Assembly (NCBI RefSeq): GCF_025753855.1
Contig: NZ_JAOWPT010000016.1
Location: forward strand, 44,503 to 108,502
Length of the DNA stretch: 64,000 bases
Source: Mesorhizobium sp. ZC-5
Lineage (GTDB): Bacteria > Pseudomonadota > Alphaproteobacteria > Rhizobiales > Rhizobiaceae
Reading direction: 5' to 3'
The translations under genes and the position numbers were made by a program. Within the stretch, counting starts at the first letter, position 1, and the number at the start of each line of letters is the position of its first letter. The notes under the pieces were generated by a model that made no database searches, had not been told where the DNA came from, and saw only the letters and a program-made list of their open reading frames with translations. Of this stretch, positions 23,545 to 45,517 are shown in pieces.

Positions 23545-25701
23545 TCAACTGGATCCGGTTTGCGCCCGCCACAGGCGAGCGTAAGCGCCTTCAGCTGTCA
23601 GCAGATCAGCATGCCTTCCCTCCGCAACAACCCGCCCCTTTTCCAAGACCACGATCTTGTCGGCCCCACGAATGGTGCTGAGTCGATGAGCGATGACCAC
23701 GATGGTCTTACCAGCCCGACGCAGATCTTCAACGACCCCCAGGACAAACGCTTCGGCGATCGAGTCAAGAGAGGAGGTCGCCTCGTCGAGGATCAGGATC
23801 TCTGGATCCCGGTAGAGAGCCCGAGCCAATGCAAGGCGTTGCTTCTCGCCGCCGGAGAGGCGTAGGCCGTTCTCGCCAAGATAGGCCTGGAAGCCACCGG
23901 GCCAGCGCTCAGCTAACTCCCGTAGCCCTATTTGATCGCAGATTTGCAGGATCTTCTCCATGTCCGGCTCGAACTCGCCAAGGGCGATGTTCTCGATCAC
24001 CGAGCCCGAGAACACGTCGATCGATTGCGGTACCGCTGCGACAACCTTGAGCAGCGATTCGGTCGAGAGGTCCTGGAGGGCATAGGGGCCGATCCGGATG
24101 CGTCCACCCTCAAGCGGGTAGACATTCTGCAGCAGCGCCGCAAGGGTACTCTTGCCGGAGCCACTTTCCCCTACCACGGCCGTCATCTCGCCCCGACGGA
24201 AGGTGACGCTGAGATCCTCGAAAAGATGCGGCTGCGCGCCATGGCGGAACGTCACGTTTTCCAAACAGACATTGCCAAGGTCGGACTTGGTGGCATCGAT
24301 GCCCCCGCCGCTTGCCGACTCCAGGTCCAATATCTCGAACAGGCGATCCGCCGCGATAAAGGCATCCTGAACGATCCGGTTGGTTTGGATCAGGCTGGCA
24401 ACCGGTCGGGTGACATAGCCAAGCAACGTATAGCAGGACAGCAATTCGCCGGGCGTTACGGTCTGATCGAGGACAAGCGTCGTTCCGAACCACATCAGCA
24501 CGATGGTGAATATGGTCGAGACGAAAGTCGAGGCATTATCTCCGAAGATCGAGATGAGGCCGGAGCTGTAGACGGAGTGCAGCATCTTGACGAAGCGGGT
24601 CTCCATCTTGAAGTTGGCGAAGCTCTCCATGCCGGAGGTCTTGATCGTGGAGACAGCTCCAAGTGATTCCACCAGTTGCGCCTCCAGATCGGCGGCATTC
24701 TCCATAATGGCGCGCTGGCGCTTCCTATTCAGCCGGTTGATGGTCCAATAGACGAAGAGGTACAACGGGATGGAGATCGCCACGACCAAGGCGATCTTCC
24801 ACGAGTAGATGCACATCAGCCCGAACGAAAACAGTATCACCAGCACGTCGACGAACATGTTGATCGACACGTCGTTCAGGAAGCTCCTGATCTTCACCGC
24901 GTCGTTCATGCGGGAGACGATTTCGCCCATGCGCATGCTGTCGAAGAATTTCTGGGGCAGGCTTAGGATGTGATTGTAGTAGCCGAGGATCAAGTAGACA
25001 TCGATCTTCTGCCCCGTTTGCAGGACGAGCCGGTTTCTGAGGAGATTGATCAGGATCTGCGCCACCAGGATCAGCACCATAGCGACGCTCATCAGGTTGA
25101 GGAGGTTGCGGTTGCCCGCTGTGATCACATGATCAACGACCTTCTGGACGTAGATAGCCGTCGAGAGGCCGAGGATTGTCGTCACCAGTGCCCCGACGAG
25201 AGCCTGCGCCATCACCGCCCTGTGTGGCGCAAGCACACTGGCGAGGCGGGCGAGGGGCGAGGTGGTCTCTTCGCCGCGCTTGAAGGTGTCTGCCGGAACC
25301 AAGAGCACCAGGACGCCAGTCCATTGCGTCTTGAATTCCTCGTGTGGCATCTTGCGGATTTCGCCATAGGCTGGGTCCATGACGGTGATCCACCTCGCGT
25401 CGATCGACTGGATGACGACGAAGTGGTGAAGGACCTCCTTGACGACGACGTGCGCGATAGCGGGTTTGGGGATTTTGTATAGGCTGTCGAAGCCGCCCTT
25501 CACCCCCTTGGCAACGAACCCCAGCTTCCGGGCCGCTTCCGTGAGGCCCAGCACGGTGGTCCCGGAGCGGTCGGTCGAGGCATACTGGCGGATGCGCGAC
25601 AATGGCTGCTTGTGGCCATAGAAGGCAGCGACAGAGGCAAGGCTGGCGGCCCCGCAATCGGTGATGTCGCGCTGCTTGAACTTGATGACCTTGCTCGACA
25701 T
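23545..25701 (-). CDS. C39 peptidase-containing ABC exporter (PCAT)
   Basis: This 718-residue protein combines an N-terminal C39 protease, a six-helix membrane domain and a nucleotide-binding domain. The protease site is complete: Gln10 and Cys16 in QRDITDCGAAS, His93 in LHHFVVI and Asp109 in MDPAYG. The ATPase has Walker A VGESGSGKST, signature LSGGEKQRLALARAL and Walker B ILILDEATSSLD. PCATs cut substrates after a double glycine and export the cargo across the inner membrane. A HlyD-type adaptor gene ends 33 bases upstream of its start and two double-glycine peptide genes precede that, so substrate and machine are in one operon. The outer-membrane partner is not encoded here and is probably a housekeeping TolC. 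Confidence 0.95.
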   Translation of the reverse strand: MSSKVIKFKQRDITDCGAASLASVAAFYGHKQPLSRIRQYASTDRSGTTVLGLTEAARKLGFVAKGVKGGFDSLYKIPKPAIAHVVVKEVLHHFVVIQSIDARWITVMDPAYGEIRKMPHEEFKTQWTGVLVLLVPADTFKRGEETTSPLARLASVLAPHRAVMAQALVGALVTTILGLSTAIYVQKVVDHVITAGNRNLLNLMSVAMVLILVAQILINLLRNRLVLQTGQKIDVYLILGYYNHILSLPQKFFDSMRMGEIVSRMNDAVKIRSFLNDVSINMFVDVLVILFSFGLMCIYSWKIALVVAISIPLYLFVYWTINRLNRKRQRAIMENAADLEAQLVESLGAVSTIKTSGMESFANFKMETRFVKMLHSVYSSGLISIFGDNASTFVSTIFTIVLMWFGTTLVLDQTVTPGELLSCYTLLGYVTRPVASLIQTNRIVQDAFIAADRLFEILDLESASGGGIDATKSDLGNVCLENVTFRHGAQPHLFEDLSVTFRRGEMTAVVGESGSGKSTLAALLQNVYPLEGGRIRIGPYALQDLSTESLLKVVAAVPQSIDVFSGSVIENIALGEFEPDMEKILQICDQIGLRELAERWPGGFQAYLGENGLRLSGGEKQRLALARALYRDPEILILDEATSSLDSIAEAFVLGVVEDLRRAGKTIVVIAHRLSTIRGADKIVVLEKGRVVAEGRHADLLTAEGAYARLWRAQTGSS

Positions 25702-25734
25702 GGCGGCTCGCTGGCGTTTTGGAAAAATGAAGGA

Positions 25735-26931
25735 TCAGCGGCCCGCCAGAAGCGGATCGAGCCAATCGTCGATCTCATTGTAGAGGAGTTGCAGGAGGGT
25801 GCGGTCGGCCACGAGGAAGCGGGCCCGCACGGTCATGCCTTTCTTCAGGTGACCGGTGACGCCGTTCTTGAGAACGAGATAGTTGCGAGAGAGCGCGCAG
25901 CGGACCTTGAAGACCGGGCTCCTGTCATGGAGGGTGAAGTCCTGCGCCACGTCGAGTACTGTCGCATCAATGACACCCCATTGATTGTAGTTGAAGGCAT
26001 CCACTTGGAGCCGCACCGACTGGCCCGGCCGCACGAAGCCGATGTCGTTGGGGGAAACGTAGATTTCCGCCACCAGTCCGCCGTCCGGCGAGACCCAAGC
26101 GACGGTTTGCCCCGCCTGGATGTAGCTACCGGGGGTGAGGCCGGAGAATTCCTCAATAGCGCCTGACACGGGGGCTCGAATGCGGGTCAGATCCCGTTCG
26201 TTCTCGAGCTGATGCAAGGTGGCCGTGAGTTCCTTGAGGCGTAGGCAAATATCGAAGAGCTGCTGGTTCCATTCAGCGGATTTGCGCCGGGCGAGGATCT
26301 CGCCCTGAATCTCAATGCTCTGGAGGGCGAAAGCCTTCTCGTCAACCACCTTTGCGGGCGTTGCGGCAGCGGAGAGCAGTTGCTTAGCGCGGTCGAGTTC
26401 CGCTGCCGCATTACTGCGGGCATATTGGTTCTCCCGCAGCAGGTTGAGAAAATGTGCCCGCTCCGCCGTGGCGAACTCGGTCAGGAGGCGGATCGGGTCC
26501 TTGGCCTGTGTGCCGGAGGAGATCAGGGTTTCGAGGTCACGGGCAAGATCGCTTTTAGCGCGGATGTCGCCAGTAAGCGCCAGGAGCTTTTCCTCGACCA
26601 CCTCATCATCGAGGCTGAGGATCTCCTGCCCCTGAGCAACGGGATCGTTCTCAACGGCAAGGATACGGGAAATTCGTCCGGAGACAGGTGCGATCAGGGG
26701 CGTCTTCTCGATCGTGGGGCGAATGATACCGGCACTTTGGGCAGAGACCGTTACGGTGATGAGTGGTAGCGACCCCAATGTCGCAACCACAGAGAGCACA
26801 ATCATCCAATAGATGATCAAAGATCGTCCTGATCGTCGGGAGAGAATGCTCTCTACAGTGTAGCGGGCAATTTCAGGAGGAAGGGGAACTGCCGATCTGT
26901 GTTCAGTATGAAGAAAAGCTAGCTTGCGCAC
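25735..26931 (-). CDS. HlyD-family membrane fusion protein
   Basis: The 398-residue adaptor has a short cytoplasmic N terminus, one membrane segment around residues 38-62 (IIYWMIVLSVVATLGSLPL), a lipoyl-type half (IAPVSGRISRILAVENDPVA), a helical hairpin, the second lipoyl half (TRIRAPVSGAIEEFSGLTPG) and a beta-barrel domain. Such adaptors link inner-membrane peptide exporters to TolC. The frame starts with GTG 26931, seven bases after the second peptide stop; the strongest ribosome site is rather far upstream, so expression may depend on coupling to the peptide gene. Confidence 0.92.
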   Translation of the reverse strand: MRKLAFLHTEHRSAVPLPPEIARYTVESILSRRSGRSLIIYWMIVLSVVATLGSLPLITVTVSAQSAGIIRPTIEKTPLIAPVSGRISRILAVENDPVAQGQEILSLDDEVVEEKLLALTGDIRAKSDLARDLETLISSGTQAKDPIRLLTEFATAERAHFLNLLRENQYARSNAAAELDRAKQLLSAAATPAKVVDEKAFALQSIEIQGEILARRKSAEWNQQLFDICLRLKELTATLHQLENERDLTRIRAPVSGAIEEFSGLTPGSYIQAGQTVAWVSPDGGLVAEIYVSPNDIGFVRPGQSVRLQVDAFNYNQWGVIDATVLDVAQDFTLHDRSPVFKVRCALSRNYLVLKNGVTGHLKKGMTVRARFLVADRTLLQLLYNEIDDWLDPLLAGR

Positions 26932-27964: not shown

Positions 27965-29092
27965 CTACAAGAGGCCTTTATAGGCTGCCTCAATGTCGCG
28001 CAGGCCAGACTGCACTTTTTCCATCGGCATATAGCTGAAGCAGAGTCTGACGTGCTGCCGGGAAGTAGGACCATGACGGTATCCTTCTACCAAATGCACG
28101 TCATACTTCTTCCTGACGGACTCCAACAAAGCTGCAGGGGCTACAGCGCCAGCTAGCCGTACCCAGAACGAAAATCCCCCCAGAGGCACCTCGTATGATG
28201 GTTCGCAGAACGTGCAGCTCTGCAGGAGGGCGTGCATGCTGTCTCGCTTGTGACGGTAATGTTGCCGAAGTCCAGCAATATGTGCCTTTAATTCCGGTGT
28301 CCCCAACAACGCAAGAGCGACATTGCTCGCTACGGGGCTGACGCCGCCGTCACATTTCAGGCGCGTCAACTGCGCTATCATCTGCGCTTCCGCCACAACC
28401 CAGCCCACCCGCAGCCCGGGTCCGGCGATCTTTGAGATACTGTATACATTGATCACATGCTCTCCCGATGCAATGATTGCAGGTGGTGGGTCGTCATATG
28501 GTAGATCTGCATAGACGAGATCCTGCACCATGAGCACGCCATACCTTGCCAGCAGGGCTGCTACTTGGCCCATACGGTGCACTGAAAAACGGCGTCCGGT
28601 CGGATTGTGGAAAACTGGCGCGGTGTAGAACAGCCTGACCCGCCCAGTCGTGCGCAAAGCCTCTTCCAGTTGACCGAGATCAACACCATCCTTATCCATA
28701 CCTAATTGAACCATCGTGGCACCAGCAATCGAAAATATCCGTAGTGCGCCAAGATAAGACGGGTCTTCGGTCAGCACTACATCGCCAGGGTCGAGCACTG
28801 CATCGGCGATCAGCTGTAGTGCCTGCGATGCGCCATTGGTGATAAGGACGTTGTCGCACGCGACTGCATGCTGGTGGGCCAATTTCTCCCGCAATTGCGG
28901 GAGGCCGCTGCCATCGGTGTATTGCAGCAGATCGGAGAAGCTGACACCGGTGTGTGTCGAGATTGCCTCTGGCCATCGCAGTTTCCCGAACATTTCCGGA
29001 TCGGGAAGCCCGTACGCAAAATTGATCGATTGCTTGGTCGATGAATAATCGAAAGCGCTATATGCAGTGGAAATCCGGCTGCGTATCGACAT
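27965..29092 (-). CDS. PLP-dependent aminotransferase of the N-N cluster
   Basis: The 375-residue fold-type I enzyme has the PLP lysine Lys221 in YSISKIAGPGLRVGW, Asn163 in FHNPTGRRFS and Asp191 in VQDLVYADLP. It resembles the 2-aminoadipate/LysN and MocR-catalytic group of aminotransferases. The start is ATG 29092 behind CTGGAG, 19 bases after the MetRS-like stop; an upstream extension to 29197 would overlap that gene. As the last gene of the operon it probably transaminates the product or a precursor amino acid. The substrate is unknown. Confidence 0.85.
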   Translation of the reverse strand: MSIRSRISTAYSAFDYSSTKQSINFAYGLPDPEMFGKLRWPEAISTHTGVSFSDLLQYTDGSGLPQLREKLAHQHAVACDNVLITNGASQALQLIADAVLDPGDVVLTEDPSYLGALRIFSIAGATMVQLGMDKDGVDLGQLEEALRTTGRVRLFYTAPVFHNPTGRRFSVHRMGQVAALLARYGVLMVQDLVYADLPYDDPPPAIIASGEHVINVYSISKIAGPGLRVGWVVAEAQMIAQLTRLKCDGGVSPVASNVALALLGTPELKAHIAGLRQHYRHKRDSMHALLQSCTFCEPSYEVPLGGFSFWVRLAGAVAPAALLESVRKKYDVHLVEGYRHGPTSRQHVRLCFSYMPMEKVQSGLRDIEAAYKGLL

Positions 29093-29111
29093 CTTTGCTC
29101 CAGGGAAGAGG

Positions 29112-30701
29112 CTAGGTGGTGGCAGGAGCCGCTCTGAAGCGCTGTTCATAAGCAGCAATGAACGCGTCAGGAATGGGTTCGCCGAACAGGGGGGCATCCA
29201 TCACTGACAACGTGTCTGCACTTGGCCAGACTGCACAGTTATCGAGCCCAGGTCGCCATCCGGCGCCAAAAAAGAACGCGCCGTAACGCGCCGCGAGCAC
29301 CGGCACCACGGGGTGTAGCATGCTCAGGAAGACCGAAATTTCCGTGGCGCTAGCCCCGGCCTCGTCCCTTGCAAGGCCTCCGCCTTCAAAGAAAGCATCT
29401 ATAGCATCGAGTGCAGCCCACACGCGCGCCTCATGCATGGCTTGGCAATAGCGTTCAACATCAAGCACTCGCTCAGGCTTCAGGGTGTCCACCGTCAGCT
29501 TTGCGTTGGATCCAGCATGTTTGCGCAAAGCGGTCTCGAAGAGATGGATCCGAGCTGCCGCCCGCACCAGCCCTTCGATTTGAAAATCGTTGTCGTCGCT
29601 GCCAAATGCTTTGGCAATGCGCGCTAAATAGTAGCGCAGCACGCTCGGATCGATATCTCTCGCCACCTCGTCGGCCCATATGGCGTGGTCACGACCTGTG
29701 GAAAACTTTGCTCCTTCGAGCTTATAATAATCTTGAATCGCATGATTGTGTGGAATTGCATATCCTCTTGCGAGCAAGCTGGCGGTAACACCGATTGTGT
29801 AATAAAAGCGGTTGTCCTGCCCCATGAAGAACAGGAGTTTCGTGTCAGGGCTGCGCATGGTGTCATCATAGTCGGCGCCATTCTGCTTGCAGATGCGTTC
29901 TATGCCCGTATCGAAGCACCATAATCCTTCAAACCAAGTCAGTAAGGTCTGGCCTGCCACTTCTGCCGGGGCGACCAGGGTCACTCCGCGGTCGAAATGG
30001 CGCGACATAGGCAAGGCCCGCAATTCGGTCCGAAGCCACTCGATTTCCTTGTGTTTGATGGTGTCTGGCCATCCACTGCCTTCGATAGCGCGATCCAGCG
30101 TCGGGGCAAGCCGCTCGAAGTTGAAATGCGCCTGGCGGATCGGACGTAGCGTCAGGGCATGGCCGCACGGTGTGTGGACCGGATCGCGGAGCAGACTGTG
30201 CTGGATTGCAAGGCCGCAGTTTTCACAAAGGTTGCTGTCGGCCGCGGCGTTGCAGGCCGGGCACTTGCCGACGGCAAGCGAGTCCGCTGCAAACTCATCA
30301 CACGACTCGCAATAGAGTTGCTCGGCGTCCCGCAGCTCGATATAGCCTGCCGCATCGAGCTGCTTGTAGATCGCAAGGCTACGTCGTTTGTGCTCTTCAC
30401 TTGAAGTCCGGACAAATACGTCCGGAGCAATATGCACTGCCCTCAGACATTGCAGGATTTCGTCGATGTGCATTTGTGCGACATCATCGACCGACCTGCC
30501 AAGCTTGCGAGCCTTCACCAGCGTGTAGGTGCCATGCTCGTCCGCGCCGGTTACATGATAGGCCACATGGCCGATCATGCGCTGGTAACGCACGAAAATG
30601 TCGGCAAGAAGGTACACGCCGCCAATATGGCCAAGATGTAATTTACCGTTTGGGCACGGCGGGGCGGGGCATACGAAATAGGTTTGTCGATTCTCGCTCA
30701 C
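29112..30701 (-). CDS. Methionyl-tRNA synthetase-like protein, hydrazine synthetase subunit
   Basis: This 529-residue protein is a class I MetRS relative: HIGH-type HLGH (His22-His25) in PNGKLHLGHIGG, a KMSKS-type KFSTG (Lys332-Gly336), and a zinc insert with Cys131, Cys134, Cys147, Cys150, Cys159 and Cys162. In known hydrazine synthetases (Spb40 of s56-p1, Tri28 of triacsin, the formycin/pyrazofurin enzymes) a MetRS-like domain activates an amino acid and esterifies it to an N-hydroxy amino acid; a fused cupin then forms the N-N bond. Here the cupin is the separate gene just upstream (one base between stop and start). Clustering with cupin and N-hydroxylase argues against a role as housekeeping MetRS. 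Confidence 0.85.
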   Translation of the reverse strand: MSENRQTYFVCPAPPCPNGKLHLGHIGGVYLLADIFVRYQRMIGHVAYHVTGADEHGTYTLVKARKLGRSVDDVAQMHIDEILQCLRAVHIAPDVFVRTSSEEHKRRSLAIYKQLDAAGYIELRDAEQLYCESCDEFAADSLAVGKCPACNAAADSNLCENCGLAIQHSLLRDPVHTPCGHALTLRPIRQAHFNFERLAPTLDRAIEGSGWPDTIKHKEIEWLRTELRALPMSRHFDRGVTLVAPAEVAGQTLLTWFEGLWCFDTGIERICKQNGADYDDTMRSPDTKLLFFMGQDNRFYYTIGVTASLLARGYAIPHNHAIQDYYKLEGAKFSTGRDHAIWADEVARDIDPSVLRYYLARIAKAFGSDDNDFQIEGLVRAAARIHLFETALRKHAGSNAKLTVDTLKPERVLDVERYCQAMHEARVWAALDAIDAFFEGGGLARDEAGASATEISVFLSMLHPVVPVLAARYGAFFFGAGWRPGLDNCAVWPSADTLSVMDAPLFGEPIPDAFIAAYEQRFRAAPATT

Positions 30702-30702
30702 T

Positions 30703-31026
30703 TCAATCCCACCACATCGAAAGGAAGTTCAGGCTGATTTCGGGGTCGGTATTTCTGATGGCATGCATCTGATGCGGCGCTATGTAGAACAGCGTGGTCC
30801 CCGTGACTGGCGTGGTTTGTCCATCCGCTTCGAAGAGGCCGCTGCCCGAAATCAGTACCCACAGTTCATGCTCGTGGTGCGAATGAAGGTCTACCGCCCC
30901 GCCCGGCACTACCTCCACAATCGACGTCCCGAAGCCCGTCGCAACGGGCTTCGGGAGATGCTCCAGTAAGCGGCACACCAGAACGCCATATTCTGGGCGC
31001 ATTACTGAGCGATCAATTTTTTTCAT
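30703..31026 (-). CDS. Cupin, predicted N-N-forming partner of the MetRS-like protein
   Basis: A single-domain cupin of 107 residues with both metal motifs: His48, His50 and Glu54 in LHSHHEHELWVL, and His88 in APHQMHAIRN. In fused hydrazine synthetases this cupin binds zinc and rearranges the aminoacyl-hydroxylamine ester into a hydrazine; that role here is inference from gene order. The ATG at 31026 has GGAGG 13 bases upstream. A GTG at 31059 overlapping the previous stop (GTGA) would add 11 residues and may be used through coupling. It abuts the MetRS-like gene. Confidence 0.85.
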   Translation of the reverse strand: MKKIDRSVMRPEYGVLVCRLLEHLPKPVATGFGTSIVEVVPGGAVDLHSHHEHELWVLISGSGLFEADGQTTPVTGTTLFYIAPHQMHAIRNTDPEISLNFLSMWWD

Positions 31027-31055
31027 GTACAATGTCTCGCCTCCGCTCTGCGAGT

Positions 31056-31835
31056 TCACTCACGATAAAAAATGCCGTTTGGAAGCTTAAGGTTATCGAG
31101 GTCCGACACTTTGTTCTCGGGCGGATTATAGGCGCGCTTAAGTGCGTTATATTCAGCGCGCGTCGGTCCACCTGTTGATGCTCGCTGGAATACCAGGTAG
31201 ATTACTCGCCGGGAACGGTCACTCTTGTTCGGTAGCGAGTAGTGCGGCGCGTAGTCGTCGAAGATGAAGACGTCACCAGCCTTCCACGACACTGGTTCCC
31301 ATGAGAACGTTTCGGCCACTTCAGGGTCGATCACACCACCGGCATCCATGGGGAATACCCCTTTCTTGTGGTTGCCAGGGCTGAAGAAAAGGCCGCCATT
31401 GTCCGGGCCAGAATCGTCGATACCGATCGCAGCTATTGCATGAACCATCCGATCAGGCAGCTTGTGCGGGATGTGGTAAATGTCCTGATGGGGGCGATAG
31501 CCACCGCTGTCGGGATACTTGAAGATCAGCAACTCTTTGAGCCTGCGTGCATTTTCCTCCAACAGCGTCTCGACGACCGACTTGATACGCTGATCTGCAA
31601 GGAGCAAATCGCGTAGCTGATCGTTGAAATCGAGAAAGTTCTCGACCTTAGAAACAATCTTTCTATTGTCTGTCGTCTTCTCAAACCACATAAGCCATTT
31701 GTCGTCGCTGACATCCCATTGGGAGACATCTTCCACAAGACTAGCGATACGCTCCAGAGCAATAGGATCAAAGAATCTCTCGATCGTGACATATCCATCG
31801 TCCTGCCACTTTGTTTTTTTTGCTTCACTTATCAT
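31056..31835 (-). CDS. Phytanoyl-CoA dioxygenase-family Fe/2-oxoglutarate enzyme
   Basis: The 259-residue enzyme has the facial triad His116 and Asp118 in RPHQDIY and His198 in DDYAPHYSL, with Arg209 for 2-oxoglutarate. PhyH-family enzymes hydroxylate or desaturate small molecules and amino acids. The start ATG 31835 has a perfect AGGAGG eight bases before it. It sits between the N-hydroxylase and the cupin, so it likely oxidises the amino acid substrate or the hydrazine product. It is not part of the known two-protein hydrazine machinery. Confidence 0.88.
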   Translation of the reverse strand: MISEAKKTKWQDDGYVTIERFFDPIALERIASLVEDVSQWDVSDDKWLMWFEKTTDNRKIVSKVENFLDFNDQLRDLLLADQRIKSVVETLLEENARRLKELLIFKYPDSGGYRPHQDIYHIPHKLPDRMVHAIAAIGIDDSGPDNGGLFFSPGNHKKGVFPMDAGGVIDPEVAETFSWEPVSWKAGDVFIFDDYAPHYSLPNKSDRSRRVIYLVFQRASTGGPTRAEYNALKRAYNPPENKVSDLDNLKLPNGIFYRE

Positions 31836-31898
31836 ACGAAGAACCTCCTATTTGAAAGAACCATATTCTTGAATAATCTAATTCCAGCGCCGGTCAGG

Positions 31899-33278
31899 TT
31901 ATGGGTCCTCTGAAATGGCAACGCTGGCACGGGGAGCGACGCTGTCGGGCGCAGATGAATTCCGTTGCGGTGGAATTGTGCGATTCTGTTGCGCTTCCTC
32001 GTCAGAAAGATCGCCCAGGCTCTTAAGGAGATGTCGATCCGGTGCGTATGTGTAGTATTCTTTGCCAATGATACTGTTAATGATGCGACTGTTTCGAAAG
32101 GCAACCAGCGATAAATTTACACTCTGCAAACCGTTCTGGAAGAGAGTCCTGTTCTGCAAGTAGACGCTGCCAGAGATATTATCCTTAAATTTAACGGCGT
32201 AGTCGTCTCTCACGACCGGCAGGCCTTCTTCCATGCAGGCAGAGGCCAGCAGCGTGTCGATAAAAGGCAAAGTGCGCGGCTGGAATCCGGTGGCGAGGAT
32301 GATGCGATCAACCGCCACGGCGCGCCGCTGGCCTGTGTTGTGTGAAGCGAGCAGCGCATGCCAGCATTGCACATTGGGAGAGAGGTCTTCGGGAAAGAGG
32401 TCTTCCATAACGACAGCGGGCAGAAGTTGGATGATATCGTCGATATTGCCGCTTGCGCTGCGTTCATAGACCATCTTGTAGATGCAGTTGCTCAGCTCCG
32501 ACGAGATGCCATCGCTGGTTAGCTTCTCGTTTTCGACGATGCTGCGGCGCTCTTTCAACGGCAACGCATGAAAGCGCAGGCTGTAGGACGGCATGTACGA
32601 TTCGTTTACGAAGGCGCTATCATCCATCGTGAACAGATTCGCACGCGACGTTACCCACGTGATCTTGCCGATGGCTGGATTGCCGAGCAGATGTTCGATG
32701 ATCTCCGCCCCGCTCTGACCGCCACCGACGACCATGACGCGTTCACCGATACCGATAGGTAACCGGTGCAGATAGTTCGCCACATGGTAGACATCCTTGC
32801 CGAGCCAGGGCCTGGCGCATTCTGGGATTTTTGGAACTATCCCGACGCCAATCGCAACTGCGCGTGCAAGATAACGGTCCTTGGTCGTCGTCACGCGGTA
32901 ACCTTTCTCGATCTTGGCGATGTCAGTGACCTCTTCGCCAAACCTGAGATTGGGTAACTGCCGTGCCACCCACTGATAATACTGCGTGAACTCGCTGCGC
33001 GACGTAGTCGTTTGCCGCCGGTTAATAAAGCTGTAAAGCCGTCCGTGCACCGAAAGATAATTGAGAAACGAATATGGGCTGGTGGGATCTGCAAGCGTTA
33101 CGCAGTCTTTCAGAGGAGATACCTGCAGACGGCTATTGGGAAGCAACAACCCGGGGTGCCACGTGAAGCCAGCTTCCTTCTCGAAGAACATAGTGCGTAG
33201 TGGCGTGGGCTGCGCCAGTGCGGCCAGACTGAGATTGAACGGACCGACGCCGATACCGATGAGATCGAGCATTTCCAT
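31899..33278 (-). CDS. Lysine/ornithine N-monooxygenase-like enzyme
   Basis: The 459-residue flavoprotein follows the IucD/SidA family: FAD motif GIGVGPFNLSLAA, LKDCVTLADPTSPYSFLNYL, NADPH motif VVGGGQSGAE and the LATGF motif. Family members make N6-hydroxylysine or N5-hydroxyornithine, usually for siderophores. No siderophore synthetase is nearby; instead the operon holds a cupin and a MetRS-like protein, the partners this enzyme has in hydrazine synthesis (Spb38 with Spb40). The C-terminal 40 residues are low-complexity and probably disordered. The start is 80 bases after the exporter stop. Confidence 0.9.
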   Translation of the reverse strand: MEMLDLIGIGVGPFNLSLAALAQPTPLRTMFFEKEAGFTWHPGLLLPNSRLQVSPLKDCVTLADPTSPYSFLNYLSVHGRLYSFINRRQTTTSRSEFTQYYQWVARQLPNLRFGEEVTDIAKIEKGYRVTTTKDRYLARAVAIGVGIVPKIPECARPWLGKDVYHVANYLHRLPIGIGERVMVVGGGQSGAEIIEHLLGNPAIGKITWVTSRANLFTMDDSAFVNESYMPSYSLRFHALPLKERRSIVENEKLTSDGISSELSNCIYKMVYERSASGNIDDIIQLLPAVVMEDLFPEDLSPNVQCWHALLASHNTGQRRAVAVDRIILATGFQPRTLPFIDTLLASACMEEGLPVVRDDYAVKFKDNISGSVYLQNRTLFQNGLQSVNLSLVAFRNSRIINSIIGKEYYTYAPDRHLLKSLGDLSDEEAQQNRTIPPQRNSSAPDSVAPRASVAISEDP

Positions 33279-33359
33279 GCATTACGCCTTTCAACGATCG
33301 AGTTTCTTCATCGCTCTTTAGTATCGTGCGTTTGTGCACTGCCGGGATGGCTGGAAAGC

Positions 33360-34640
33360 TCAGGGGAATCGCGAAATGGTCTCGGTTTCCATCCTTGGCC
33401 TCCACGGTATCCGGCTAGCAATTGCGATGTTGGTAACCACCAGCCCCGCCATCACCATCAGTGCGGCGTCGAAGCTATAGGCAGCGATCAAACTCCCCGC
33501 GAAGAACGGGAAGCCGAACGCGCCGACGAAGTGTCCGAGCGTGAACACCTGGGAGGCCACCGGAATCGATAGGCCCCGCTCGCCCGCCAGGTTCACGACC
33601 ATCGCATTTAATGTCGAATAGGTGAGACCATAGCCTGTCGCAAAGAAAACGGTCGCAAGGACATACAAGACCGGGCTTCCCGCGTTCACCACCAGAAACC
33701 CAATCCCGATAAGCGTCGTGACAAACAAGGCAAGCGCGAGACGCTCGAGCGGGAGTTTCCCAATCATCGACGCGACCGAAAAACGCAAAGCCACCGTCGT
33801 TACGGTGAACGTCAGGAAGAAGATATCCGGGGTTAGTCCGCGCGATCCGGCATAAAGGCTCTGAAACGTGGATAGGCCGGCGAATGTGCAGGCGGCGAGG
33901 CTCATCATAATGACTGGCAAGACCGTTTTCGCGCGCAGAATGGACAGGGTCGCCCGAACGGATAACGCCACGGCTACCATCGGCAGTTGCGGCTGGTCCC
34001 TCAAGCGCCTCTGTATGAGAATGGCGAAGGCTGCAGCCATCGCGCAGAAGACGGCATAAAATGCATAAGCAGTGCTGGGGCCGCCAAGATGGTCGGCGAT
34101 CAAGTGGCCAAGCGGCGCTGATCCGCCGACGCCGACCATCTGCGATCCCGACAAGAGGGTCAGTGCTTCCAGGCGTGCGGAAGGCTTGAGACAGTGGATG
34201 AGTTGGATCGGTGCCAGCATGTAGAAGATCGCCCAGCCGAGGCCGAGCAAGAGGCCGCCAGCATAGGCGAGCAGCAGGCCGCCTGTTCCGATCAGAGCGA
34301 AGCATCCCATGGCGGCCGCCATGACCAGGGCGGAGACGGCGACCAACGGCAATATGCCCGTACGTTCGGCCAACCGTCCCGCGAACAGGGAACCGATCAG
34401 GGTTGCTACGGTGCCTGTGCTGACTACGGCCCCAGCCGTCGATGCTTGAAACCCAGCCGAGCGCAGGCTATCCGCCAGCAGAAAGCTTGAGCCGTAGGCC
34501 ATGGCAAGTGCGACGGCAGTGACGAGATAGGGGGCAAAGACGTTGGCCGGCAATCTGTCGAGCAGGCTTTGGGTCGTGTCGGCTGTGACGGGCTTTAATG
34601 TCGAAAGCGTTTCCGTCTTTTCACGAGTAGTGTTATCCAT
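33360..34640 (-). CDS. MFS transporter, probable product exporter
   Basis: The protein of about 426 residues has twelve hydrophobic segments and an MFS loop motif (GSLFAGRLAERTGILPLV). It is the first gene of the biosynthetic operon and divergent from a MocR-type regulator, so export of the product or uptake of a precursor is likely. The start may be ATG 34640 or ATG 34649; the latter overlaps the ATG of the divergent gene. The first membrane segment begins near residue 38. Confidence 0.85.
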   Translation of the reverse strand: MDNTTREKTETLSTLKPVTADTTQSLLDRLPANVFAPYLVTAVALAMAYGSSFLLADSLRSAGFQASTAGAVVSTGTVATLIGSLFAGRLAERTGILPLVAVSALVMAAAMGCFALIGTGGLLLAYAGGLLLGLGWAIFYMLAPIQLIHCLKPSARLEALTLLSGSQMVGVGGSAPLGHLIADHLGGPSTAYAFYAVFCAMAAAFAILIQRRLRDQPQLPMVAVALSVRATLSILRAKTVLPVIMMSLAACTFAGLSTFQSLYAGSRGLTPDIFFLTFTVTTVALRFSVASMIGKLPLERLALALFVTTLIGIGFLVVNAGSPVLYVLATVFFATGYGLTYSTLNAMVVNLAGERGLSIPVASQVFTLGHFVGAFGFPFFAGSLIAAYSFDAALMVMAGLVVTNIAIASRIPWRPRMETETISRFP

Positions 34641-34647
34641 ACATCTC

Positions 34648-36051
34648 ATGAAAACAGATAACAGACTCCTTGCCGTTATTCAATCCCTACGTGATGCGGT
34701 GGCCTTGGCTCGCCCGGGTACGCGCCTGCCTTCCGTGCGAACGCTGATCAAGGAGCACCATGTCAGCCCGGCGACGGTCGAGCGGGCCTTCGCCCAACTC
34801 GTCGTTGAAGGCCTCATCGAGCCCCGCCCGGGCCAGGGAACCTTTGTTCGCGAAGCGCCGGAAAGTGCGTCCGAAGGGTCCGATTTTTCGTGGCAGTCGG
34901 CAGCGCTTGGGGCCGCCCGCGGAGATAGCGGCTTCCTGGGCAAGTTGTTGAGAGTGCCCCCGGCTGACAGCCTCATCCTCAGCATGGGCTATCTGCCGCC
35001 CGACCTTCAGGCGTCAGGGCTCCTGGCGACTGCGCTCCGCCAAGCTGCCGGACGGTCCGAGCTTTGGGACCGCTTGCCGATCGAGGGCTTGGAACCTTTG
35101 CGAACGTGGTTCGCGCGCGAGATCGGAAATGGCGCAGTGTTCTCCCCCCACGATGTCATCATATATGGCGGTGGGCAGGCCGCCATTGCCTCCATTTTTC
35201 GGGCGCTGGTGCCTCCCGGACGTCCGATTCTTGTCGAGACGCCGACCTACACGGGTGCCATTTCGGCTGCCCGTGCGGCGGGCCTTTTACTGGTCCCCGT
35301 GGCAATGGACGAACACGGGGTTCGGCCGGAATTGCTGGCGGACGCCTTCCGGCAAACGGGAGCGCGTGTTTTCTATAGTCAGCCGACCTTCTCCAATCCG
35401 CCCGGTATCGTCATGTCCACTGAGCGGCGCGCCGTTGTCCTCGACATTGCGGCAAAGGCGAGGGCCTTTATCGTAGAGGATGACTGGGCGCGCGATCTCC
35501 ACCTCACAGGTATCGCGCCAGCGCCGCTGGCGGCGGGCGACCGGAATGGTCATGTTGTCTATGTCCGCTCTCTCGCCAAATCGGCTGCGCCTGGGTTGAG
35601 GGTCGCGGCCGTCATGGCGCGCGGGGCGGCGCTGGCACGGTTGAGATCCGCTCGCGGCAGCGACGACTTTTTCGTTTCTGGTCCATTGCAGGCAGCAGCT
35701 TTGGCCGTTGTCTCCGCGCCAGGCTGGAAACGTCATCTTAGTGCAATTCGCGCTGCTCTGATCGAGCGGCGTGACGCGCTTGTCGGCGCTTTGCACGTGG
35801 AACTGGGAAATTGCGTTGCGTTCCAGATACCCACTGGAGGCATGCATTTATGGCTGCGGCTGCCTGATCACATCTCGGATATTGAGCTCGCGACGGAAAT
35901 GGCTCGGCAGGGCGTCGTCGTCAGCGCCGGTCGGGCATGGTTTCCTGCCGACCCTGAAGGTTCGTTCCTACGGCTGACATACGCAAGTGTCCCCGCCTCC
36001 CTTCGTGAGGGGATAAGACGGATAGGGCAGGTTATTAAGCCGCAAATCTAG
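34648..36051 (+). CDS. MocR-type (GntR/aminotransferase) transcriptional regulator
   Basis: The 467-residue protein has an N-terminal winged helix (GTRLPSVRTLIKEHHVSPAT, then VERAFAQLVVEGLIEPRPGQ) and an aminotransferase-like domain with the PLP lysine in VRSLAKSAAPGLRV. MocR proteins sense PLP or amino-acid aldimines and often control adjacent transporters or PLP-linked pathways. Its ATG at 34648 overlaps the start region of the divergent MFS gene, leaving no room for a conventional intergenic operator. It probably regulates the N-N cluster. Confidence 0.88.
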   Translation: MKTDNRLLAVIQSLRDAVALARPGTRLPSVRTLIKEHHVSPATVERAFAQLVVEGLIEPRPGQGTFVREAPESASEGSDFSWQSAALGAARGDSGFLGKLLRVPPADSLILSMGYLPPDLQASGLLATALRQAAGRSELWDRLPIEGLEPLRTWFAREIGNGAVFSPHDVIIYGGGQAAIASIFRALVPPGRPILVETPTYTGAISAARAAGLLLVPVAMDEHGVRPELLADAFRQTGARVFYSQPTFSNPPGIVMSTERRAVVLDIAAKARAFIVEDDWARDLHLTGIAPAPLAAGDRNGHVVYVRSLAKSAAPGLRVAAVMARGAALARLRSARGSDDFFVSGPLQAAALAVVSAPGWKRHLSAIRAALIERRDALVGALHVELGNCVAFQIPTGGMHLWLRLPDHISDIELATEMARQGVVVSAGRAWFPADPEGSFLRLTYASVPASLREGIRRIGQVIKPQI

Positions 36052-36859: not shown

Positions 36860-39505
36860 TTACTTCTTAGGTTTCATCTGCGGACGATCTGCTTCTGCAG
36901 CCTCGCTCTCGGCCTTGAGATCAACAATCAGGGCTTCGAGCTCAGAAATATGCTCGGTGAATTCGTTGGGAAGCGGAACGGCTACCGTGTCGGCCGCTGG
37001 ATTGTCATGGCTGTGAGTGTTTGCGCGGGTCATGCCCTCGTGGAATCGGATTGCCAATGCGTCAGGAAAGCGAACGTAGCGCAACAACTGGGTCTGGATG
37101 ACATCAGTTCCACGTCGCACGATATCCCGGAAGATCACTTCCTCCACCACGCGCTCATAAGTGTCGCGCAGTCGGCCATAGAGGTTCTTCACCTGATATT
37201 CATATTCCGCCGGGCTCGCAGCATGCAGCTTGGGCAGTGGTGCGGCGTCATTTTTCAATCGGCTGATGCGCTTGGCGACGTTTTGCCCCTTCCACGGCAT
37301 CCCTGCCGTGTCCACTTTGCCAGCGGCAGACTTGTCGCTGAACAGTGCCACCGTCACAGGCTCGATGCCCACTTCGTCAGCGGCGCGGGACAGCTCGTTA
37401 AAGAAGACAATATCGTGGGTAAACACGACTACCTGTCGCCGAGATGCCTCCTCCGCGATCCGCTCGGCCACCTTGGCGCTTCTGTCGCGATCGAGGGACG
37501 ACACGGGATCGTCTATCACAATCGGTCCTGAACCGTCGGTCAAGGCGACTTCGGTGAGGAACCCAGCAAGAGCCAATGCACGCTGCTCACCCTCGCTCAG
37601 GATTTCCGACGTCACCTTGGTCAGCTTGGTCCTGGGATCAACCTCGAATTCCGCCTTGGTCTGACCGCTCTTGCGTGCCAAACCGACGTTGAGATGCATG
37701 ATATCGAAGCGTGCGCGTTCGGCATCAAAGCGTGTGACAACCGCAGTGGTCAGATGAGCGTCCACAAGCTCATTCGCGCGCTGCGTAATCCCCCGGGTCT
37801 GAACGTTGGCGAGAGCCTTCGTGTAGCCATCATCAACGACGAGCAAGTTCCGCCGGGTGGTGAGCAGCAACTTATTGGCCGCCAAGAGTTTCCGATCCTC
37901 GAGCTCTGCTTTCTCGGCCACGAGCTTGGCCCGCTCTTCGCTATTGCCAGCCTGCGCCAGCCCATCCTTTTCGGCTTTCAGTCTGAGCGCGAAAACCTTC
38001 AGATCGTCGATCGGCACGACGAGGGGAGGAACCATCCCGTTTTCTTCGCCCCCCTGTTTCGCGAGCGCTTCTTCCCGCCGTATAACCGCTGATGTCCGGA
38101 GGTTCGCGAGCGCATCAGCCAGCGCCTCATCGCGCTTTCGGACCTGTTCGATGCGGTCGGCAAAGTCAGAGGCGCGAAGACATATCAGCTCGTGAACACC
38201 TCTCAGTGCATCTTCGACCGCTTGCTCCGCCTTCCTGGCCGCGGCATCAAGGATGTCGTCCATGTACTTCTGAAATCGCTGCATGCGAGCAGCACCTTCC
38301 GGCAAAAGCGACTGCTGGCACAACACGCATGCCGCGGCCCCACCATCTGCCATCAGAACCGGGAACGTCTTCTCTTTGTAGGCTTCCGTCACCGAGTAGT
38401 CACGCGCCGCAGCCCAAAGCGACCGCCAGGCATCACCACCGACACCTAACAGGGGCTCGTCGGTGAACAACGCGCCGGCGGCCACCGTGGCCGCCTGGCG
38501 TGCCGCAGCTGCTGTTGAGCGGAGTTTTCGAAGTTTTTCCAACGCGCCATCCGTGAATGCCGATCCAACGGCCTCGGATTCGAGCAGGAGGGCGTCTGTC
38601 CATTTCGAAAGCGCATTGACGTCAGCGGCGGCGGCAGCACCTGCGGAAAGGGCAGCGGTGAGTTCTTCGATACGCTGCTCATCGGCATTGCTGAACGACG
38701 TTGCTGACTCAATCTGGGCGTCGGTTGTCAACTTGTTCAGCTGCTTGTCAAAGAGCTGAGCCTTACAATTGCGCTGAGCGGCGAAAACGATCGAGGTCAG
38801 GCCTACCTTGTTGCCGACTGCTACCGCCCGTTCTGCCTCCAGTTTCTCCTTCAGGGTGATGCAGATGGCGTTCAGCCGATGCGGAAGGGCCAGTCCGAAG
38901 GGTAGAAAGCGGATTTGATTTCCGCCATCGACGTAAAGTTGTGCGGATGCCGTATCGAAGACCGCAACCTGCATGAGCTGCGGCGATGCCGCCTTACCGG
39001 GCGACCAAGGAATTACCACCTCACCATCGCCGGCATTGACCACGATTTCGGCCGTCTGCGGACCGGGCGTGCCGCCATAGACGTCAGCAAGAACCTTGAG
39101 CTTGACCGGATTCTCAACGCGCGTACGACAAGCTGTGCGCAGGATCCTTACGAAACCGCTCTTGCCGCTTCCGTTTCGGCCATAGACGATCGTCAGAGCC
39201 TTGGGGCAGAAGGCGAGAGATGCCTTGGGCACCAGCCGATTCACGTTCTCGACATTGGCGATGCGCGTCAAGACGATCGGCTGATGCTCCCCGTTTCCAA
39301 AATGAGCTTTCGTGAACGGTATGGCAGGTTGCGGCCCAGCCGCGAGTTTGAAGCCGGCCGCGGACTTGACCATAGCCAGCAGAGCGTCAATGTCAGCATC
39401 TATAAGCTCATTGCTGATCGCCAGTCGGCGAAGGGCATCCTGCTTCCAAGATGAGAGCGTCTGCGACCATTCCATAACGTCATCAATCGGCGCCCCCGCC
39501 ATCAT
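36860..39505 (-). CDS. AAA_13-type ATPase, PrrC/RloC-like
   Basis: This 881-residue protein has an early Walker A (GRNGSGKS at 109-116), a long coiled-coil middle with a CxxC at VCVLCQQSL near residue 400, then the ABC signature LSEGEQRALALAGFL and Walker B GPIVIDDPVSSLDR, an SMC/Rad50-like layout with a possible zinc hook. The family (PF13166) includes RloC and PrrC anticodon nucleases. The C-terminal 100 residues contain R785-x3-E789 in ERVVEEVIF and later His822, His831 and His833, spacing compatible with the PrrC Arg-Glu-His nuclease triad, though I cannot prove it. The gene follows the giant helicase by 30 bases and has GGGGGA before ATG 39505. A translation-blocking defence role is inferred. 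Confidence 0.85.
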   Translation of the reverse strand: MMAGAPIDDVMEWSQTLSSWKQDALRRLAISNELIDADIDALLAMVKSAAGFKLAAGPQPAIPFTKAHFGNGEHQPIVLTRIANVENVNRLVPKASLAFCPKALTIVYGRNGSGKSGFVRILRTACRTRVENPVKLKVLADVYGGTPGPQTAEIVVNAGDGEVVIPWSPGKAASPQLMQVAVFDTASAQLYVDGGNQIRFLPFGLALPHRLNAICITLKEKLEAERAVAVGNKVGLTSIVFAAQRNCKAQLFDKQLNKLTTDAQIESATSFSNADEQRIEELTAALSAGAAAAADVNALSKWTDALLLESEAVGSAFTDGALEKLRKLRSTAAAARQAATVAAGALFTDEPLLGVGGDAWRSLWAAARDYSVTEAYKEKTFPVLMADGGAAACVLCQQSLLPEGAARMQRFQKYMDDILDAAARKAEQAVEDALRGVHELICLRASDFADRIEQVRKRDEALADALANLRTSAVIRREEALAKQGGEENGMVPPLVVPIDDLKVFALRLKAEKDGLAQAGNSEERAKLVAEKAELEDRKLLAANKLLLTTRRNLLVVDDGYTKALANVQTRGITQRANELVDAHLTTAVVTRFDAERARFDIMHLNVGLARKSGQTKAEFEVDPRTKLTKVTSEILSEGEQRALALAGFLTEVALTDGSGPIVIDDPVSSLDRDRSAKVAERIAEEASRRQVVVFTHDIVFFNELSRAADEVGIEPVTVALFSDKSAAGKVDTAGMPWKGQNVAKRISRLKNDAAPLPKLHAASPAEYEYQVKNLYGRLRDTYERVVEEVIFRDIVRRGTDVIQTQLLRYVRFPDALAIRFHEGMTRANTHSHDNPAADTVAVPLPNEFTEHISELEALIVDLKAESEAAEADRPQMKPKK

Positions 39506-39535
39506 ACTTCCCCCGATAACATCGTTTGCTCATTC

Positions 39536-45500: not shown

Positions 45501-45517
45501 CTATCGTGTGATTCCAT
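39536..45517 (-). CDS. TGase-like/DUF4011/SF1 helicase/Vsr-like nuclease/DUF3320 defence protein
   Basis: This 1993-residue protein has an ordered set of domains. Residues about 190-300 look like a transglutaminase fold (Cys237 in ATCLDTTLLFA, His263 in DGHAAVGVW). DUF4011 follows from about 394 (ERWQKKLLDLTLRNRLLNLP). An SF1 helicase has Walker A GPPGTGKS at 710-717, Walker B VVIFDEASQI, VGDPKQLPPTNFF and LNVAVTRARQELIVFSG. A PD-(D/E)xK Vsr/DUF559-type nuclease follows (SPFEEAVATQLERRGW, FRIDLAI, AGVECDGATYH), and DUF3320 ends the protein. The architecture matches the DUF4011-helicase-Vsr family reported as the defence gene hhe by Gao et al. 2020 (from memory). It forms an operon with the AAA ATPase. 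Confidence 0.88.
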   Translation of the reverse strand: MESHDSSQYATIDSAASDISAAPCIVADVAPSFTYGSYQNAIPVIRSIRIENNSTFHFENCRVELTSSPSFLRPKTWTVDRLIPGDSLQLSDRKVELDAGYLAGLNEAERGEITLRLSSGGKILDERRLTVRLLARDEWGGVADMAQLLPAFAMPNDPGVAQILRAAAERLAAHGHPSSLDGYQSQSPQRTYMLTAAIYSAIAGMGLHYAEPPASFESRGQKIRRPTTIAQECLATCLDTTLLFAAALEAAGLHPVVLMFDGHAAVGVWLAKRTFGNAIETDQMEVRKALASREFIAFETTGVTHRPALTLDGAQSALSNRLAEDQAHVFVAAIDVRRSRSGGITPLASHEPIRRNVVEDEAEVAAVLPLPPAPAIGELPAETIEVKPTSAAGRIERWQKKLLDLTLRNRLLNLPDSKKTIPFLCTDVAYLEDRLANGVAIRLISLPEQNPLGERDEVLYRDVHGRDLQRGFAAEALLRDELPSTLDARQLDARLIDLHRQVRNDFAEGGANTLFLAVGFLRWKKKPDDERSYRAPLLLVPARLERRSATSRFTIRFHEDEPRFNATLLQFLERDFDLRLPQFGGDLPLDDNGIDVPRVLTMMRQAVRDVPGMEVIDETALSTFSFAKFLMWKDLVERTEALRQNRVVRHLIDTPEQAFQAADGQSPFREESDLDRAYAPSSIISLLPLDSSQTAASLAAAEGHDFVIVGPPGTGKSQTIANMIANCLGVGKTVLFVAEKTAALDVVYRRLREHGLGNHCIELHSNKADRRHFLAQLKSSWEHGGRADASEWVAINERLRVRRDELNAYVEALHQRYANGWTPYLALGIALRSADEPAPVLTWQARDTHDAQTLFDLEELAAEVGLVFASVDREPALDLIDVGEWSIGWQENLLSAAKSLQTAIELLMSSIRDYLASLGLGAKEPVSHAVLNCLASLAEVLSQSRGRDISIAFDRDFAQCRTALVDLGRSIETYRDAERGLAATYGVDRVRELDPDGLDRQWREAKASFWPNSMLGRRKVQKLLQGYADLGTADPGRDLSPLQRMKQALFAIDQNLLAGKPLRLEGLATDVKAVTDILELAQRLRGALRIPGCSQEEIRSVLRSVAPSLRGTLENDRVRQAGDRLLAATKSLEVARRVFGEIAGRDTPDSGDGASLAALKTKLGALIGARNLLRDWSAWCGARSRAIRHNLAPLVEQIETGAIRPEHARSAFRVGYARWWLPKVLDEDLVLRNFRRFQHENAIKEFREIDDLVRSHATQRVISSIAHGLPAVQGVSRNSELGLLRHQMELQRPSQSIRDMIGKMPECFSKLAPCMLMSPLSIAQYLPSNQALFDVVIFDEASQITTWDAVGAIARARQTIIVGDPKQLPPTNFFGRNEDEQEVADHEKDLESILDEARASGIPVRDLRWHYRSRSESLIAFSNHHYYQNRLVTFPSPAVEDRAVRLRKVPNGIYDRGKSRTNRIEAEAVTAEAVARLKSWLKLPEIGRPTLGVITFNAQQQSLILDLLDAARRDHPELEWFFAEDRVEPTIVKNLENVQGDERDIILFSITFWKDASGKPPPMDFGALNRDGGERRLNVAVTRARQELIVFSGFTADQIDPARSKALGVQHLKTYLDYAERGAIALPAQDIGSVGGFDSPFEEAVATQLERRGWVVVPQVGISGFRIDLAIQNPDLAGAYLAGVECDGATYHRSSTARDRDKIREQVLKGLGWNILRVWSTDWWFDANGCAERLHTSLETLLEEGRAKRATEEPKTESHWDMGRQVNPIDESAQDHARPIEEPPLPWTVAETELVSVNIPAASSHSEGTPPSTTTGQHAIGAAEGRYAVADLTGFRADPEQFFKFGYRATLHGMIETVIETESPLRTDVLAQRIARVHGWLRTGGRIRERIDLHLRDLDRTQESSGEFIWKKGKVLDLLPYRQPVDEEARRSIADIPLAELASMVIGNPDLLDMHDPARDLARLLGVERLAAISRARLDEAIARAKQHIVQSE

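Follow-up and report, generated by a model that had tools for sequence, protein, structure and literature searches.

A probable split hydrazine synthetase operon in Mesorhizobium in which a PhyH-family oxygenase may stand in for the usual FAD enzyme

A 64,000-nucleotide stretch of DNA from Mesorhizobium sp. ZC-5 (the whole stretch analysed, hereafter the window) carries a six-gene operon on the minus strand. It encodes an MFS exporter, a SidA/IucD-type flavin N-hydroxylase, a PhyH-family dioxygenase (PhyH), a cupin, a methionyl-tRNA synthetase-like (MetRS-like) protein and a pyridoxal phosphate (PLP)-dependent enzyme, and is accompanied by a divergent MocR-type regulator (Table 1). Families were assigned with Pfam and NCBIfam, and all the operon genes were found at the positions and in the families given by an earlier annotation made from the letters alone (the sequence-only reading). 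We propose, with moderate confidence, that these genes form a hydrazine synthetase pathway in which the cupin and the MetRS-like protein are separate and PhyH stands in for the usual flavin adenine dinucleotide (FAD) enzyme.

The gene set recurs in other species (relatives in Mesorhizobium, Bradyrhizobium, Paraburkholderia and Ralstonia), and the operon is therefore not a chance arrangement. The order of the MFS and N-hydroxylase genes is swapped in Bradyrhizobium, Paraburkholderia and Ralstonia, the MFS gene is degenerate in the bean Rhizobium loci, and the regulator adjoins the operon only in the window and in loci L009, L010, L047 and L048, out of 36 loci. Among the named records, the closest matches come from Mesorhizobium sp. 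YC-39 (L009) and from the M. amorphae plasmid pM0123d (L010, L046), where all seven genes are 97-99% identical at the protein level. Homology to the annotated pM0123d genes places the probable starts of the PLP enzyme, cupin and MFS genes at 29092, 31026 and 34640, respectively. The regulator begins either at ATG 34648 or at GTG 34630, the latter matching the pM0123d annotation. The ATG codons of the regulator and the MFS gene (34648/34649) share the CATG at 34647-34650, and the 5' ends of the two genes overlap under all choices of start except MFS 34640 with ATG 34648. The overlapping ends (34630-34650) leave scant space for a classical promoter between the pair.

Table 1. The operon and its divergent regulator in the window (ORF, open reading frame)
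Feature	Coordinates	Strand	Family match (E value)
GntR/MocR-type regulator, PLP-binding fold	34648..36051	+	Pfam GntR 2.1e-11, Aminotran_1_2 3.7e-27
MFS exporter	33360..34649	-	MFS_1 PF07690 8.7e-21
SidA/IucD-type flavin N-hydroxylase	31899..33278	-	Lys_Orn_oxgnase PF13434 3e-102
PhyH Fe(II)/2-oxoglutarate dioxygenase	31056..31835	-	PF05721 5.2e-38
Standalone cupin, predicted N-N bond-forming type	30703..31026 (118-amino-acid ORF to 31059)	-	Cupin_2 4.8e-10
Standalone MetRS-like protein, predicted amino-acid-activating, ester-forming half of a hydrazine synthetase	29112..30701	-	tRNA-synt_1g 4.9e-71
PLP-dependent fold type I enzyme, SISK lysine, accessory	27965..29092 (ORF to 29197)	-	Aminotran_1_2 2.7e-36

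The cupin was compared with the PDB, where 5UQP ranked second (2.2e-8) of the 59 sequences with E up to 1. In Zhao 2021 (PMC8664883, cited throughout from excerpts), 5UQP is RHS1, a standalone cupin proven to form an N-N bond, and WP_007299751 is its accession. The cupin of locus L079 (Rhodococcus sp. DK17) is WP_007299751.1, and its residues D63, H65, E69 and H103 stand at the RHS1 numbers. Cupins were accepted as synthetase cupins on four metal or catalytic positions that include the essential Glu (H50/H52/E56/H90 in PyrN, D63/H65/E69/H103 in RHS1). The window protein has them at H59, H61, E65 and H99 (118-amino-acid ORF numbering), with spacing identical to that of RHS1, and the H-x-H-x3-E and distal H are present in all 12 aligned window-type cupins. 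Kinship to the hydrazine synthetase cupins, on which the sequence-only reading had staked its case, is borne out by the RHS1 match and the shared ligand spacing.

The MetRS-like protein was placed in a tree of 38 rows, where 17 window-type and 17 hydrazine-synthetase rows separated from three housekeeping MetRS rows and L060 with support of 100/99. The 17 window-type rows formed a clade of their own (100/100). Long branches, among them the genome's own housekeeping row and L079, drew a warning from the program. Near-copies and fragments were left out of the tree (L009, L014, L020, L026, L030, L031, L034, L035, L036 and L081), and the window-type loci L013, L015-L019, L033 and L037 were never entered. 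L060 (Cupriavidus), at first taken as a synthetase, was rejected as it grouped with housekeeping MetRS. Among the 60 of 310 matches listed, those on Escherichia plasmids were mostly annotated metG rather than being hydrazine synthetases.

Could the MetRS-like protein be a second, possibly inhibitor-resistant methionyl-tRNA synthetase, encoded among genes for an unrelated hydroxamate siderophore or antibiotic? The tRNA-synt_1g match, the top NCBIfam matches (methionine--tRNA ligase models, all below cut-off) and the frequent service of N-hydroxylases of this family in siderophore synthesis speak for it. Against it stand the tree split, an RHS1-type cupin next door, the lack of any siderophore synthetase family among the operon genes in Pfam, and the ATP motif, which reads KFST[G/S]R in each of the 17 window-type rows (KFSTGR in the window), as against KMSKS in two of the three housekeeping rows, the genome's own enzyme included. 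HLGH, likewise picked out by the sequence-only reading, is also present in 17/17 rows. Further, the genome encodes a separate housekeeping MetRS with an Anticodon_3 domain (6.1e-14), while Pfam detected no Anticodon_3 in the window protein at E up to 0.5, nor any in the L079 protein. For comparison, Anticodon_3 scored 4.8e-8 in an Escherichia plasmid MetRS and 0.0004, below cut-off, in the L056 synthetase. A housekeeping identity was rejected on these grounds, and the second-synthetase explanation appears extremely improbable. The concern that the protein might group with housekeeping MetRS was settled by the tree, in which it falls on the hydrazine-synthetase side. A flavin N-hydroxylase adjoins the cupin/MetRS-like pair, as in hydrazine synthetase neighbourhoods, and the window very probably encodes a hydrazine synthetase of known kind. 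The cupin and MetRS-like protein are indeed separate, as the sequence-only reading had it, but the split is not new, standalone pairs having already been described by Zhao 2021 (PMC8664883).

Two types of enzyme are linked to cleavage of the hydrazine adduct in sister pathways: the FAD enzyme Spb39, which cleaves it (review PMC11705231, likewise cited from excerpts), and a putative saccharopine dehydrogenase, suggested as the cleaving enzyme for pyrazomycin (Zhao 2021, PMC8664883). We surveyed 18 other hydrazine-synthetase loci for such genes. A full-length FAD oxidoreductase was found in 11, and a saccharopine dehydrogenase in two (L079 and L064); in L063 a FAD piece is cut by the record end, L080 has a weak FAD match on the opposite strand, and L056 and L072 have PhyH together with FAD remnants. 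Nine of the 11 full-length FAD genes also built the search profile and so match by construction (all nine are annotated FAD-dependent or FAD-binding oxidoreductase, and the three tested were DAO by Pfam); of the two FAD loci outside the profile, L081 shares its synthetase scores with L057. Among 32 window-type loci, a count that left out L009 (which has PhyH) and L045 (which has none), PhyH was present in 30 (not in L017 and L019) and an intact FAD gene in none, L011 carrying a FAD remnant. With a profile built from two sequences, a saccharopine dehydrogenase gene was found beside the synthetase in 0/32 window-type loci.

PhyH is linked to the synthetase. On plasmids, 34 of 37 records were full length at 75% identity or above, and all 34 lay 0.3-0.4 kb from the synthetase gene (coordinates compared by eye); the other three were one truncated record and two at 33-34% identity (Dietzia, Rhodococcus). 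In genomes, 5/5 matches adjoined a synthetase. Residues H116-x-D118, H198 and R209, which we take to be the Fe(II) and 2-oxoglutarate ligands, were invariant in 20/20 aligned PhyH sequences, and the PhyH tree likewise comprised 20 rows in all. PhyH was full length in one open frame in 33/36 loci (exceptions L017, L019 and L045). The PLP gene was seen in 18/36, two of them incomplete (L029, L032); it was not seen in the Rhizobium loci, L011, L056 or L072, nor in L033, where the contig ends before it, and L011 retains a 24-residue remnant. PhyH is thus a core gene and the PLP gene an accessory one. The sequence-only reading had cast both as tailoring genes, which suits the PLP gene with its patchy occurrence and not PhyH, a core gene sitting in the FAD slot.

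Three hybrid loci (L011, L056 and L072) bear directly on the exchange. Their PhyH is about 83-86% identical to that of the window and follows a different N-hydroxylase and FAD remnants; in the PhyH tree it sits beside the window's with supports of 84-87, not starred. In L056 (Mesorhizobium sp. 131-3-5, source Lotus japonicus) the N-hydroxylase is 35% identical to the window enzyme, the fused synthetase 29% (to the MetRS-like protein) and PhyH 82.6%. Sinorhizobium meliloti SM11 and Streptomyces sp. SAT1 have an N-hydroxylase and a synthetase 45-49% identical to the L056 proteins, with an intact FAD gene between the two genes. The same slot in L056 holds a 5' FAD remnant (6776-7270), then PhyH, then a stop-containing 3' remnant (8407-8607); the remnants matched with E values of 2.5e-8 and 7.9e-5, in searches run without composition correction. 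The 3' remnant ends about 40 bases before the synthetase gene, and the SM11 FAD gene about 28 bases before it. L072 (genome G064) has the L056 layout, with 94.3% identity over 6075 bases and a 24-residue 3' remnant (E 0.007). L011 (M. albiziae) has its left junction in common with L056, including a 37-residue remnant of a window-type N-hydroxylase; it has the 5' FAD remnant, and it runs on into cupin and MetRS-like genes of the window type. Of these three, L072 (G064) was the one new hybrid locus that came from 395 genomes of the family, the synthetase search agreeing; 397 genomes of the order yielded no new one.

Pairwise ratios of nonsynonymous to synonymous substitution (dN/dS) were then compared. 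The FAD remnant gave 0.88 between L056 and L011 (166 codons). PhyH gave 0.23 for L056/L011, 0.11 for L056/L072, 0.086 for window/L011, 0.080 for window/L056 and 0.030 for window/L012, the last with saturated dS. Values were 0.10-0.17 for the N-hydroxylases, 0.18 for the cupin, 0.11-0.17 for the MetRS-like proteins, 0.25 for the fused synthetase and 0.087 for the PLP gene (dS saturated). The FAD remnant drifts almost neutrally and PhyH is constrained. PhyH lies in the FAD slot, between two such remnants in L056 and L072 and with one in L011. We infer that the FAD enzyme of C-N cleavage gave way to PhyH.

From these data a pathway may be proposed. The flavin N-hydroxylase would yield an N-omega-hydroxy amino acid, most likely N6-hydroxylysine; the MetRS-like protein would adenylate a second amino acid and transfer it to the hydroxylamine oxygen, by analogy with the proven PyrN and RHS chemistry; and the zinc cupin would turn the ester into an N-N bond, as expected from RHS1, PyrN and the conserved ligand positions. 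The gene replacement suggests that PhyH would then hydroxylate the carbon beside the hydrazine nitrogen, with collapse of the carbinolamine to a free hydrazino acid. That outcome would equal the cleavage done in sister pathways by the Spb39-type FAD oxidase or, as suggested for pyrazomycin, by the saccharopine-dehydrogenase homologue. Where present, the PLP enzyme might work on the product or on an aminoadipate-type co-product, and the MFS protein would export the product. For PhyH as the C-N cleaver, taken by itself, we consider the chances about even.

PhyH may instead be a tailoring hydroxylase acting on the intact adduct or on an amino acid before N-N bond formation, with no C-N cleavage; the FAD enzyme would then have lost its use and fallen into decay. 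The pathway would end in a hydroxylated hydrazine amino acid that stays uncleaved and that the PLP enzyme might cyclise. PhyH-family enzymes mostly hydroxylate, the sole NCBIfam match of PhyH is a methylphosphonate hydroxylase, far under its cut-off (176.4 against 500), and relatives of the PLP enzyme, which include 2-aminoadipate aminotransferase 2EGY and MppQ 8TN2 in the PDB, extend in NCBIfam to MppQ, GntC and VioD. However, PhyH occupies the exact gene slot of the cleaving FAD enzyme, and many PhyH-bearing loci have no PLP gene. We regard this alternative as the less probable of the two.

The substrate of the N-hydroxylase was considered from alignments and from a tree with 13 window-type rows. 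Lys57 in LQVSPLKD and Asn225 in DDSAFVNE are as in MbtG and PvdA, and the TSDGIS stretch is similar to one in the L079 enzyme, from the RHS1 cluster. This pattern and likeness favour lysine, without certainty. Lys107 of SidA binds the substrate carboxylate, according to the excerpted text of PMC7347517, and the R. jostii counterpart of the L079 enzyme is termed an N6-lysine hydroxylase (Zhao 2021, PMC8664883). A diamine substrate was also considered. The three top-scoring PDB enzymes differ from the window enzyme at Lys57 and the DDSxFVNE stretch; presumably they are diamine enzymes, one being named putrescine N-hydroxylase, and Lys57 presumably corresponds to SidA Lys107. An amino acid was preferred because the diamine-type enzymes differ at these positions, and the matter is not settled.

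Certain observations weigh against the proposed pathway and its lysine-derived, PhyH-cleaved product. L076 has a synthetase with neither a FAD gene, nor PhyH, nor a saccharopine dehydrogenase, and a linked cleavage gene is therefore not universal. The exchange of FAD gene for PhyH is seen in one junction lineage (L011, L056, L072), and the remnant ratio for L056/L072 is 0.52 (92 codons), a less clear sign of neutrality. Hydroxylation by PhyH need not entail cleavage, and its substrate could be a precursor. The substrate assignment is weak: the TIGR04439 match (histamine N-monooxygenase, 264.9 bits, cut-off 700) and the PDB ranking point towards diamines. The third housekeeping MetRS row (L082) has a KISTSR-type motif, so that KFSTGR is not diagnostic alone. 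In R. etli CFN42 the losses on plasmid p42d indicate that some bean strains can do without the pathway, and the window operon has no sigma54-type site.

The last two points concern distribution and regulation. The locus search gave 31 loci, of which L039 (20% identity) was dropped, leaving 30 window-type loci with 57-99% identity in the best segment. Their hosts are Mesorhizobium, Rhizobium, Bradyrhizobium, Paraburkholderia, Ralstonia pickettii and Burkholderiaceae bacterium 26. Of the plasmid records, 38 contained 80% or more of the query at a single site, and 33 of these name Phaseolus as source. On p42d of R. etli CFN42, nodA and nodD2 stand on either side of the MetRS-like gene, which is close to nifHDK; the N-hydroxylase and PhyH were not found there, and the cupin is a stub of its last 48 residues. 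The source genome (6.34 Mb in 68 contigs) carries nodA and nifH on contigs other than that of the window.

It is conceivable that many strains carry the operon as a relic in decay and that the intact copies are roleless passengers of symbiosis plasmids. CFN42, L017 and L019 lack the N-hydroxylase and PhyH and retain no more of the cupin than a stub, the N-hydroxylase is broken in L018, and the MetRS-like gene is not one open frame in L026, L036 and L037. (In L018, from R. sophoriradicis, the N-hydroxylase gene at 837-2009 has an inverted middle part.) On the other hand, pairwise dN/dS is 0.03-0.25 for the intact genes tested, the gene set is retained in Bradyrhizobium, Paraburkholderia and Ralstonia, and the promoter is retained in 8/10 Bradyrhizobium loci; we judge the relic explanation improbable.

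Sigma54 promoters have a -24/-12 site, and NifA binds TGT-N10-ACA upstream of it. A perfect -24/-12 site lies 5' of the N-hydroxylase gene in the 8/10 Bradyrhizobium loci (not L026 and L028), and five of these eight have an exact TGT-N10-ACA box 100 bases upstream of the site, so that both parts occur in 5/10; in L027 and L033 the box deviates by one base. As the Bradyrhizobium loci are mutually related, the eight promoters are not eight independent events. L011, L056 and L072 have a -24/-12 site with one mismatch and an exact box 58-61 bases upstream. None of the five Paraburkholderia and Ralstonia-type loci had a sigma54-type site. When 14 loci (564,322 bases, both strands) were scanned, six perfect sites were found, the number upstream of the operon there, and 11 at up to one mismatch. 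In 57 partly overlapping loci (2,130,234 bases) there were 15 distinct pairs of site and box; eight precede this N-hydroxylase gene, and the rest include some close to the nif genes of L056 and L072. Shuffled upstream regions gave 0.001 perfect sites each (5,700 shuffles, 19 regions). Perfect sigma54 matches in 7/9 bean-Rhizobium loci were set aside, as they lie inside decayed MFS coding sequence and the site is homologous to intact MFS codons in L047/L048. By their patterns, the putative promoters of the Bradyrhizobium and hybrid loci resemble the sigma54/NifA type. Elsewhere in the window there is one NifA-type promoter, at position 13671.

Among known systems, the RHS1 pair of Rhodococcus jostii RHA1, whose cupin accession is that of L079, likewise has a separate cupin, MetRS-like protein and N-hydroxylase and the same cupin ligand positions, and the L079 N-hydroxylase has the TSDGIS/ASDGIS stretch in common with the window enzyme. 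L079 differs from the window in having a saccharopine dehydrogenase neighbour and no PhyH; the two N-hydroxylases are 34% identical, and the L079 MetRS-like protein belongs to another deep clade. The other parallels are drawn from the excerpts of the review PMC11705231. Spb38/Spb39/Spb40 and Tri26/27/28 comprise an N-hydroxylase, a FAD oxidase and a fused cupin-MetRS, and the same first three steps would be expected; by description, the window differs in having PhyH instead of the FAD oxidase and a split enzyme. Afn8/Afn9/Afn18 of albofungin, a separate MetRS-like protein and cupin with a lysine N6-hydroxylase, resemble the window by description, but belong to a Streptomyces polyketide cluster. 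Table 2 of that review also lists Q8KGM6 of Mesorhizobium japonicum R7A, a rhizobial hydrazine synthetase that might be a fused enzyme of the L056 type, and Ral1-Ral2 of Ralstonia solanacearum CFBP2957, which may share a clade with L024 of Ralstonia pickettii.

No description of the operon in rhizobia or nodules was found in the accessible portions of the open-access literature; the available parts of PMC5011921, PMC3973600, PMC9611204, PMC8305402, PMC7950203, PMC8632152 and PMC7347517 do not describe it, and those of PMC13274452 and PMC12154687 do not mention any PhyH enzyme. In the available parts of two expression studies, a cupin gene of Paraburkholderia phymatum, Bphy_7689, appears in a table of a NifA study with the value -5.83 (PMC8305402), and blr2131 (lysine/ornithine N-monooxygenase) and blr2106 (cupin-superfamily) of Bradyrhizobium diazoefficiens appear in a table of orthologues of genes differentially expressed at nodule stages (PMC8632152).

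A second hydrazine-synthetase cluster is present in the same genome as the window (L064, G000:C14:70000-89500, 9576-15346), with a fused cupin-MetRS, an N-hydroxylase, a saccharopine dehydrogenase and an MFS gene; it lies about 22 kb from nodA. Neither this cluster nor the sigma54/NifA-type promoters of relatives figured in the sequence-only reading. Within the window, 4510-8589 encodes an Ulp1-type protease 97% identical to its pM0123d homologue, and Bradyrhizobium L029 and L034 also have a related sequence close to the operon. Next to the operon, 23545-26931 encodes a peptidase-domain ABC transporter and a HlyD-type adaptor, 83% and 74% identical to R. etli p42d genes. Region 36860-50600 has large ORFs of 881, 1993 and 1154 amino acids, matching in size genes that the pM0123d annotation calls AAA ATPase, DUF3320 and AAA ATPase, and might be a defence island.

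The FAD remnants around PhyH look like the fossil of an enzyme replacement, and lead us to predict an Fe(II)/2-oxoglutarate enzyme that cuts a hydrazine C-N bond. Around one PhyH the N-hydroxylase and synthetase modules are exchanged, which suggests that a common step is fed by divergent modules. Pathways of this N-N bond type are best known from the natural products of actinomycetes; the operon ties one to symbiosis plasmids and, in certain lineages, to promoters of the nitrogen-fixation type. Hydrazino acids inhibit PLP enzymes. A speculative and rather doubtful extension is that several genera of nodule bacteria produce a hydrazino acid in nitrogen-fixing nodules, under NifA control and through an adduct-cleaving Fe(II)/2-oxoglutarate oxygenase, and that the product acts on plant PLP enzymes. 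If so, plant targets such as 1-aminocyclopropane-1-carboxylate (ACC) synthase might be inhibited and ethylene lowered, as by rhizobitoxine, the MocR regulator would sense the product through PLP, and the operon would reach the symbiotic end served by rhizobitoxine through a second route, chemically unrelated to it.

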